Positions 54,179-56,382 of a stretch of 64,000 nucleotides of DNA are shown here, one piece after another; positions within the stretch are counted from its first letter, which is position 1; every line of letters starts with the position of its first letter. The notes beneath the pieces were generated by a model that worked only from the letters and a program-made list of their open reading frames with translations, was not told the DNA's origin and made no database searches. The stretch is from contig JAGTQC010000003.1 of the NCBI GenBank assembly GCA_018396535.1, forward strand, positions 64,988-128,987. Reading direction: 5' to 3'. This stretch comes from Candidatus Bathyarchaeota archaeon (GTDB lineage Archaea; Thermoproteota; CALKCG01; B24; DRYS01). The translations under genes and the position numbers were made by a program.

Positions 54179-55984
54179 TTACTCCTCCTCGATAGTAGCG
54201 GCTGTATAGTAGTATTCACCCATCTCCTTCTGTATCCTATCCAGTCTCGAACCCTCCTTATTAGCTCTAGGCCTATACGTTTGTCTATCCCTTCTAAACG
54301 TTACTCCAAGCTCCTTGAGGAACATATTCATACCACTCCTCATATCCATAGGCTGATGCCCGTAACCATCGACTCCAGGTATACCTGAGAATACCATAAG
54401 CCTATCAGCTATGAAATCTTGGACTAGTATATCATGCTCGACGACGAAGGCAACCCTACCGAGATTTTCTACGATCCTACGAACAGCTCTAGCCATAGCT
54501 AACCTCTCCTCTACATCTAGATATGCGCTAGGCTCATCGAGTAGGTATATATCAGCATCCATGGATAAACATATAGCTATAGCTAGCTTCTGAAGCTCAC
54601 CGCCGCTTAGATCTGATACCCTCCTATCTAAGATCTTATCCAATCTGAAGGGTCTATATATCTCCTCTCTGAAGAAGCTGGACTCCATCCTATCGCCTAG
54701 AGTCTTCCTCAATAATACTTCTACAACCCCATCGTAATCCCCGGATATATACTGAGGCTTATAACTAACCTTAACTCCACCTGGTAGGGCATCCCCCTCG
54801 TCAGGCTTCTCCAACCCGGCTAGAAGCTTAACGAACGTAGTCTTACCGATACCATTCGGTCCTAGTATACCTATAACCTCGCCTCTACGTATGAATCCAG
54901 GTTCAACTCTCAGAGTGAATCCTCCAAGCTTCTTAACCATGAAGCCCCAGCTATACTCTATATCGATAGACTCAGCTACCTGGGTAGGTGGTTTAACCTG
55001 GAATCTTATAGGTTGACTCCTAAACCTTACATTATCGCTTGGAATATATCCTTCGAGAAACATGTTTATCCCATCTCTAACAGCTCTAGGATAGGATACT
55101 ATACCGTATACACCTGGATCACCATATAGAACCGATATCATATCAGACATGTAATCCAATACTATCAGATCATGCTCAGCTACGACTACCATAACATCCT
55201 GTTTAGCTAGCCATCTGATAACCCTAGCTACCTTAATCCTCTGACGTACATCTAGATAGCTTGAAGGCTCGTCGAATATGTATACATCAGCATCTCTACA
55301 TACAACCGCTGCTATAGCAACCCTCTGTAGCTCTCCACCGCTAAGTACATCCACCCTTCTATCGATAACTTCTCTAAGCTCTAGGATCGATACGATATAA
55401 TCCATAACGCCCCGCTCATCTAGCTTAGATAGGAGTCTACTAGCTTCGCCCTTAAACACTCTAGGTATAGCATCTATATACTGAGGCTTATACGCTACTC
55501 TAAGATTACCCGAGGCGAGTTTAGCGAAGTAGTCTTTAAGAGATGTACCTCCGAAGTACTCTATTATACTATCCCAGTCTGGCGGATCACCCTCCACTAC
55601 TCCTAGGTTAGGTTTAAGCTTACCTGCAAGTATACGGAGGGATGTAGATTTACCTACACCATTCTTACCTACTAGACCTAGTACGGTAGATCTAGCTGGT
55701 ATAGGTAGTCTGAATAGTTTAAACCCGTTAACACCATATCTATGGATACATTCACCTTCAAGCTCTCCTGGAAGATTAACTATCGATATAGCTTTAAACG
55801 GGCATTTATTAACACAGATACCGCATCCTATGCATAGCTCCTCAGATATTATAGGCTTACCCTTATCATCCACCTTGATAACTTCGATCTTATTCCTAAC
55901 GAGTGGGCATAGACGTCTGCATAGTAGTCCACAATCTTCTACACGGCAGCTATCTCTATCTATTACAGCAATCCTGTTAGTCAT
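54179..55984 (-). CDS. ABCE1/RLI ribosome recycling ATPase
   Basis: N-terminal Fe-S (CRVEDCGLLCRRLCPL; CIGCGICVNKCPF), twin ABC domains with GKNGVGKST / GPNGIGKTT and LSGGELQ; likely ATG start near 55984 with AGGTG SD. Confidence 0.95.
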   Translation of the reverse strand: MTNRIAVIDRDSCRVEDCGLLCRRLCPLVRNKIEVIKVDDKGKPIISEELCIGCGICVNKCPFKAISIVNLPGELEGECIHRYGVNGFKLFRLPIPARSTVLGLVGKNGVGKSTSLRILAGKLKPNLGVVEGDPPDWDSIIEYFGGTSLKDYFAKLASGNLRVAYKPQYIDAIPRVFKGEASRLLSKLDERGVMDYIVSILELREVIDRRVDVLSGGELQRVAIAAVVCRDADVYIFDEPSSYLDVRQRIKVARVIRWLAKQDVMVVVAEHDLIVLDYMSDMISVLYGDPGVYGIVSYPRAVRDGINMFLEGYIPSDNVRFRSQPIRFQVKPPTQVAESIDIEYSWGFMVKKLGGFTLRVEPGFIRRGEVIGILGPNGIGKTTFVKLLAGLEKPDEGDALPGGVKVSYKPQYISGDYDGVVEVLLRKTLGDRMESSFFREEIYRPFRLDKILDRRVSDLSGGELQKLAIAICLSMDADIYLLDEPSAYLDVEERLAMARAVRRIVENLGRVAFVVEHDILVQDFIADRLMVFSGIPGVDGYGHQPMDMRSGMNMFLKELGVTFRRDRQTYRPRANKEGSRLDRIQKEMGEYYYTAATIEEE

Positions 55985-56034
55985 AGCCGACACCTAGAAT
56001 GATTCCGCTATAGGTGAATGATAGTGGAAAGGGG

Positions 56035-56087
56035 AAAAAAGGTAACGGAAGGAGTGGAAGGTTGGGGGGCTAAGCTACCACTCCTCC
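56035..56087 (-). promoter_or_regulatory. Candidate attenuator: hairpin overlapping the micro-ORF 3' end, followed by U6
   Basis: Minus-strand RNA GGAGGAGUGG (56087-56078) pairs with CCACUCCUUC (56057-56048), 10 bp with one G-U, 20-nt loop; U6 at 56040-56035; ABCE1 starts downstream. Confidence 0.45.
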
Positions 56088-56182
56088 TCTTCCTCTTCCT
56101 CCCACTCTTCCTCCTCCCACTCCTCTTCCTCCCATTCCTCCTCCCATTCTTCCTCCTCTTCCTCCTCTTCGAATCTGAACAT
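56075..56182 (-). CDS. 35-aa poly-Glu/Trp microprotein or leader peptide: MFRFEEEEEEEEWEEEWEEEEWEEEEWEEEEEEEW
   Basis: Manually translated: ATG to TAG, SD GGGGGAGGTG 7 nt before ATG, TATA-like box upstream, mixed GAG/GAA codons. Confidence 0.75.
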   Translation of the reverse strand: MFRFEEEEEEEEWEEEWEEEEWEEEEWEEEEEEEW

Positions 56183-56232
56183 GATCTAACACCTCCCCCT
56201 TAGCGGGGCTAAAGAAGCATCCCCACCGCTAG

Positions 56233-56240
56233 TTTAAAAA
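56233..56240 (-). promoter_or_regulatory. Candidate TATA box for the poly-Glu micro-ORF
   Basis: TTTTTAAA on minus strand about 50 nt upstream of the ATG. Confidence 0.45.
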
Positions 56241-56286: not shown

Positions 56287-56382
56287 TATACTAGTATGGG
56301 ATTGGGGTGCTTAGCACACTCAAGATCCCGCTCATCAGGATCGCAAGGGCCAGAGCTGCCATCGCACCCCGAGACTAGTATA
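56287..56382. ncRNA. Candidate structured RNA / composite hairpin, strand unresolved
   Basis: Nested perfect inverted repeats: outer TATACTAGT/ACTAGTATA (9 bp), middle GGGGTGC/GCACCCC (7 bp), inner GATCC/GGATC (5 bp) closing a TGATGAGCG loop on the minus strand. Confidence 0.4.

Follow-up and report, generated by a model that had tools for sequence, protein, structure and literature searches.

The question raised by this locus is whether a 35-codon open reading frame directly upstream of the gene for ABCE1 is a gene and, if it is, whether its product works on ABCE1 or elsewhere, in cis or in trans. Genes of this kind, rich in glutamate and tryptophan codons (E/W genes), are easily missed by annotation because they are very short and of low complexity, and yet they are anchored to a highly conserved translation enzyme. 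They make concrete the question of what, if anything, assists archaeal ABCE1. The DNA analysed, called the window here, is a stretch of 64,000 nucleotides from a Candidatus Bathyarchaeota archaeon, in which the following features lie around the micro-ORF:

54179..55984, minus strand: ABCE1 (RNase L inhibitor / Rli1), Fe-S ribosome-splitting ATPase, matching 3BK7
56035..56040, minus strand: T6 run downstream of the micro-ORF stop, a candidate terminator between the micro-ORF and ABCE1
56075..56182, minus strand: E/W microprotein gene, 35 aa, ending EEEEEEEW-TAG; open reading frame, with an identical peptide in genome G001
56190..56199, minus strand: Shine-Dalgarno (SD) sequence GGGGGAGGTG, ending 7 nt before the micro-ORF ATG
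56233..56240, minus strand: TATA-like box TTTTTAAA, its 5' edge 58 nt upstream of the ATG, kept in G001

A micro-ORF under selection

The product of the micro-ORF is MFRFEEEEEEEEWEEEWEEEEWEEEEWEEEEEEEW followed by a stop codon (minus strand, 56182-56075), with 26 Glu and 5 Trp among its 35 residues and Glu codons that are GAG 17 times and GAA 9 times. From its stop there are 90 nt to the ABCE1 ATG at 55984, with an in-frame GTG at 55993, and the order on the minus strand is a thiC-like gene, a dehydrogenase-like gene, a hairpin RNA candidate, the micro-ORF and ABCE1, whose best solved relative is 3BK7 (E = 8e-209). The composition, the GAG/GAA counts, the SD, the upstream box and the spacing to ABCE1 given in the initial annotation were all reproduced from the window sequence. 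The peptide had no match in Pfam and none in NCBIfam.

Only one other genome of the same genus, G001, was available, with an ABCE1 87% identical to that of the window, and it encodes the identical 35 residues in the same place (L012, 1314-1419). Nine codons differ between the two micro-ORFs, all by synonymous GAA/GAG exchange and with no non-synonymous difference, and in other close pairs the synonymous and non-synonymous counts were 18/1, 14/1, 9/1 and 8/0. As synonymous changes dominate in close pairs, the peptide is under selection, and the micro-ORF is a real protein-coding gene under strong selection. The pattern of substitution rules out an artefact or a purine repeat and, together with the mixture of GAA and GAG, agrees with the earlier view that this is not a pure trinucleotide expansion. 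Loss of the ORF in relatives, or indels disrupting its frame, had been named as grounds for giving it up; it is kept in relatives and free of such indels, so that the overlooked micro-ORF tied to ABCE1 of the initial annotation proved conserved and translated-looking.

Copies of the gene usually carry expression signals of their own. Among copies starting with ATG, a strong SD no more than 16 nt from the start was present in 34 of 60 (1.8 in shuffles) and a TATA-like box in 42 of 60 (20 in shuffles). T-runs, such as the one between the micro-ORF and ABCE1 in the window, are enriched family-wide, 85 of 116 copies having at least 5 consecutive T in the 60 nt that follow the stop, compared with 30.9 after shuffling. 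The fold of the 5' UTR was no better than that of shuffles (z = -0.31). An RNA element was also considered and rejected, since the relaxed-threshold Rfam matches were low-complexity chance matches to microRNAs, far below gathering scores.

The hairpin candidate further upstream is 67 nt long (56304-56370, minus strand), with the stem GGGGTGC...GCACCCC and a consensus energy of -33 kcal/mol. It is near-identical in G001 (L012, about 1056-1123), absent from the other fetched loci and without an Rfam match at gathering level, and it is a probable lineage-specific small RNA.

Composition and C-terminus of the peptide family

A scan of the ABCE1 loci and of the other loci fetched yielded 124 different peptides, the start codons being assigned automatically, so that N-termini and lengths (about 18-66 residues) are approximate. 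Detection used GAR/TGG-rich patterns, which divergent forms would escape. Glu makes up 58% of the residues, Trp 13% and Asp 4%, and basic residues are almost absent; examples are MIFEEEDEWEEGEDEEWEEEEW (family f4), MPIWYREEEEWEEEEELWEEFEEEWEEEEEW (f12), MKWLILDEEEEWWEEEEEEEEWWEEEEEEEEWEEEEW (f17) and MLSLIEEDWEDIEEEDWEDIEEEDWEEEEW (f20). Internally the peptides consist of repeated EEWEE units, with (E/D)3-8 followed by W. From one W to the next the distance is mostly 1 to 13, most often 5, and this irregularity suggests an array of motifs and not a single helical face. AlphaFold2 gave a single helix for a single peptide (pLDDT 90, pTM 0.48), a result judged uninformative for such a sequence.

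The C-terminal end is nearly invariant. In an unbiased subset of 48 copies, found solely by looking upstream of ABCE1 with the C-terminus unused, the terminal residue was W in 47 and the residue before it E in all 48. Over the whole set, 122 of 124 peptides end in W or F, and at the antepenultimate position 121 carry E and the other 3 carry D. Two ABCE1-linked copies (L020, 1288-1359, and L136) end in EEEE-TGA where others read EEEE-TGG, so that a single base change appears to have cost them the terminal Trp.

No description of such peptides was found in open-access text, which does not fully exclude an earlier one, and the E/W peptides are apparently a protein family not described before.

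Linkage to ABCE1

Two whole-genome pattern searches of 400 genomes of Thermoproteota matched 164 and 187 genomes, chance matches included. For linkage, the listed matches with a known ABCE1 position that read as an acidic peptide to the stop were kept, giving 95 in 89 genomes. Among these listed matches, 69 of 95 lay within 3 kb of ABCE1, where 0.46 would be expected by chance; all 69 were on its 5' side, 65 of them on the same strand, and they came from 20 families. The same-strand gap had a median of 129 nt and was within 150 nt for 42 of the 65, again among the matches listed. These counts are descriptive, as the genomes are related and the matches are those listed. Several of the genomes are incomplete. 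A search for E/W-rich ORFs upstream of ABCE1 in related genomes, suggested in the initial annotation, has therefore found them, in 20 families.

When mapped on a tree of ABCE1, linkage turns up in most of the main branches of the phylum other than the f6 clade. It takes 8 changes, compared with 20.2 for shuffled labels, a pattern consistent with an ancient arrangement that was lost several times. Part of the linkage may be synteny, given that other neighbours of ABCE1, an FBP aldolase/phosphatase among them, are also conserved in part of the group. The ABCE1 of family f20 has 6TMF and 3OZX as its best structural matches, and for this reason the family is taken as Sulfolobaceae-like. Both entries are presumably S. 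solfataricus ABCE1. The bearing lineages therefore seem to include the laboratory-tractable Sulfolobaceae.

Six families (f6, f11, f14, f15, f29 and f32) have ABCE1 and no E/W copy detectable by the pattern search, so that any partner role is not essential to ABCE1. No fusion to ABCE1 or tail on it was seen in lineages without the gene, among the few full ABCE1 sequences inspected, and peptides with F, C or L at the end, as possible substitutes, stood at background level in 36 genomes of the lacking families. Viral contigs gave no match, and no E/W array was present among the matches listed for 147 Thermoplasmatota-side and 149 Methanosarcina-side genomes. In other phyla one array, MVEEEDWEWEEEEEEEEEW, was found, in the 28-genome phylum of G401.

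ABCE1 itself was compared between bearing and lacking lineages. Position 301 is K or H in the former and G, L or Q in the latter, a contrast confounded by ancestry, and it is Tyr in the window. The sites separating the two groups came to a few basic positions, likewise confounded by ancestry, and were set aside. In family f11 (L039, L040) the ABCE1 frames are about 924-939 aa long and the protein match breaks after residue ~60, which suggests that about 300 aa have been inserted, possibly as an intein.

Copies away from ABCE1

Of the 95 matches listed, 26 lie elsewhere in the genome or on other contigs. Copies away from ABCE1 occur in f10, f12 (genus g13), f13, f24, f27, f44, f56 and f65, while in genus g100 of f12 the E/W gene adjoins ABCE1 (L259, L260). 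Some genomes have 3-4 copies, and G007 and G029 have several. In f5, f23 and G073 the copy adjoins ABCE1 on the opposite strand (4 of the 69 near ABCE1 among the matches listed); in f5 and f23 it is therefore proximity that is kept, rather than co-transcription. In f7 the E/W gene and ABCE1 are separated by a zinc-ribbon gene, which we take to be transcription factor S. The peptide and its C-terminus are equally well kept in unlinked, opposite-strand and gene-separated copies. This cannot be explained by a leader acting in cis only, and the E/W peptide most likely acts in trans, as far as can be judged from sequence, with an additional role in cis possible in some lineages, including that of the window. 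The standalone acidic microprotein offered as an alternative in the initial annotation fits these observations; for the accompanying idea that it mimics a nucleic acid, nothing specific was found.

Other genes also recur beside E/W genes. An unannotated protein (...FWEVENRKVEEALKIIGENQPVLLKRTREIRRP...) adjoins them in f13 and G007 (L072, L082, L251, L252, L257, L258) and is a second recurrent neighbour besides ABCE1. In f12 (L075, L078, L230, L234) the unlinked E/W gene has a divergently encoded neighbour, a protein of about 190-200 aa (YVQGLVQRRVKYRID...) that is conserved and has no Pfam or NCBIfam match. Genome G029, also of f12, carries several further E/W micro-ORFs with a cysteine-bearing N-terminus (SCEEYCKKEEDEEEEELWEEFEEEW...; L231, L232, L233).

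Proposed role and alternatives

We tentatively propose that the E/W microprotein serves ABCE1 as a dedicated partner, either in the recycling of ribosomes or in Fe-S maturation (rough probability 0.42), with recycling somewhat the likelier of the two because the repeats suit multivalent binding. The hypothesis that it binds ABCE1 draws on analogy with eIF3j, with its one acid-flanked Trp, and with the acidic-hydrophobic tails of the ribosomal stalk. The product would be a free, trans-acting microprotein, an array of acidic-tryptophan linear motifs with a near-invariant C-terminal (E/D)EW cap. Its Trp side chains, and the C-terminal Trp above all, would enter a hydrophobic pocket, and the glutamates would neutralise the basic surface around it, whether this belongs to ABCE1 itself or to the ribosomal subunit that ABCE1 is bound to. 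Such binding would modulate the recruitment, release or maturation of ABCE1. Support for a partner comes from the synonymous-dominated substitutions, the (E/D)EW end, the same design in unlinked copies with their own SD, TATA and T-runs, and a linkage within 3 kb that is broad on the ABCE1 tree and covers 20 families (69 of the 95 matches listed). Against it, the gene stands apart from ABCE1 in f12, f13 and f27, some genomes have 3-4 copies, and the six families named above have ABCE1 with no detectable copy; the contrast at position 301 is confounded by ancestry, and the linkage is perhaps partly synteny. If the microprotein is a partner of ABCE1, it would be a missing component of archaeal ribosome recycling or ABCE1 maturation, and would illustrate that a functional protein can be little more than one repeated linear motif.

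The strongest rival, though we consider it unlikely, is an acidic-aromatic microprotein that acts in trans on a target other than ABCE1, the linkage being an old gene order. It could, for example, chaperone basic proteins of the ribosome, of chromatin or of RNA polymerase, or use its acidity to compete for nucleic-acid-binding sites. The copies away from ABCE1 in eight families and the several copies in G007 and G029 would be expected of such a protein, and genes that we read as a TFS-like zinc ribbon and S17e-like recur near ABCE1 in f5 and f7. However, ABCE1 is the sole neighbour kept over about 20 families while others change, and the linkage survives strand inversion.

More specific, and improbable, is a reading of the EEW end as a free-standing signal of the cytosolic iron-sulphur assembly (CIA) type, bringing a Cia2/DUF59-type factor to the two [4Fe-4S] clusters of ABCE1. 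The C-terminal Trp of yeast Lto1 is needed for the maturation of Rli1/ABCE1, bringing Rli1 to the Fe-S targeting complex (PMC4523923), and recognition is dominated by the terminal aromatic residue and the penultimate acid, with the aromatic pocket mainly on Cia2 (PMC13082141). The near-invariant penultimate E and terminal W of the family would suit such a pocket. DUF59 (PF01883) is present in 29 of 30 genomes tested, but equally in lineages with and without the microprotein, so that there is no correlation. The antepenultimate residue is E/D instead of the L/I/M of the eukaryotic signal, the deca-GX3 motif is absent from the peptide, the W repeats are left unexplained, and archaeal homologues are reported to lack the CIA signal (PMC10623007). 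As a separate observation, DUF59 lies in frames of about 350-400 aa (~360) in several families without the microprotein (L270-L281), possibly fusions with an ApbC/Mrp ATPase, and mostly alone in short frames in the bearing families.

For the idea raised in the initial annotation, that the ORF is a cis leader or nascent-chain sensor regulating ABCE1, the acidic nascent chain or the EEW-stop would stall or destabilise ribosomes and so couple ABCE1 level to synthesis. In bacteria as well as in eukaryotes, acidic nascent chains do make ribosomes unstable during translation (PMC9718836), such pausing is modulated in E. coli by the ABC-F protein EttA (PMC11282234), and the predominance of short same-strand gaps upstream of ABCE1 among the matches listed is what a leader would give. 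A leader would, however, always lie directly upstream on the same strand, and E/W genes do not. The conservation of the peptide, C-terminus included, in unlinked, opposite-strand and gene-separated copies, the own TATA and SD with the usual T-run after the stop, and the lack of any conserved attenuator seen or of a 5' UTR fold better than shuffles leave this quite improbable as the general explanation.

Finally, it is hardly credible that the micro-ORF is no gene but a purine-tract expansion or a DNA or RNA element whose acidic frame arose by chance, because, short and low in complexity as its GAR/TGG sequence is, the mixed Glu codons, the substitution ratios in the genus pair and elsewhere, the SD and TATA enrichment and the C-terminal rule across the family all speak against it.

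Comparison with known systems

Aromatic residues set among acidic ones are a recurring theme in ABCE1 and the proteins that work with it. The E/W peptide was nevertheless placed in no known system, because in each some of the defining features are present and others are absent. The acidic leaders of the MgtL type, including those with EttA-modulated pausing (PMC9718836, PMC11282234), are likewise short acidic ORFs upstream of a gene; they differ in that the E/W peptide is kept when unlinked or on the other strand and has its own expression signals.

In archaea, tails of the ribosomal stalk protein aP1 such as SEEEALAGLSALFG are binding partners of aEF1A and of further translation factors, aABCE1 among them (PMC6791870). 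In comparison with those tails (PMC6791870), the E/W sequences lack both the N-terminal stalk domain and the GL-x-L/M-F tail. What is shared is a flexible acidic stretch followed by a hydrophobic or aromatic C-terminus, with Trp replacing Leu/Phe and no GL-(S/A)-(L/M)-F end. We take 5YV5 to be the complex of the aP1 tail with aABCE1.

In eIF3j, Trp52, which lies in an acidic motif, occupies a pocket on eIF3b and requires its acidic neighbours (PMC2824034), and eIF3j helps Rli1/ABCE1 in subunit dissociation (PMC11188067). The N-terminal acidic motif (NTA) of eIF3j/Hcr1 resembles the E/W peptide in having a Trp flanked by acidic residues, whereas in the latter the motif is repeated, makes up the whole protein and is Trp-terminal. 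The eIF3j body and the KERR motif are absent from these peptides of about 18-66 aa. To our knowledge, eIF3b is not known in archaea.

The CIA signal [LIM]-[DES]-[WF]-COO-, and Lto1, which serves Rli1/ABCE1 (PMC10623007, PMC4523923), share with the family a C-terminal W after an acidic residue. By the signal's definition, the terminal W/F and the penultimate D/E/S are found in the peptide, and the antepenultimate L/I/M and the deca-GX3 motif are not; the E/W peptide is also archaeal and consists of a long acidic-W array.

Taken with the eIF3j (recycling) and Lto1/TCR (Fe-S loading) signals, these likenesses raise the possibility, on balance somewhat unlikely, that the Thermoproteota have an ancient dedicated ABCE1 cofactor consisting entirely of acidic-tryptophan motifs with an obligatory (E/D)EW end, which would be the archaeal counterpart, and possibly the forerunner, of the eukaryotic acidic-Trp signals servicing Rli1/ABCE1.
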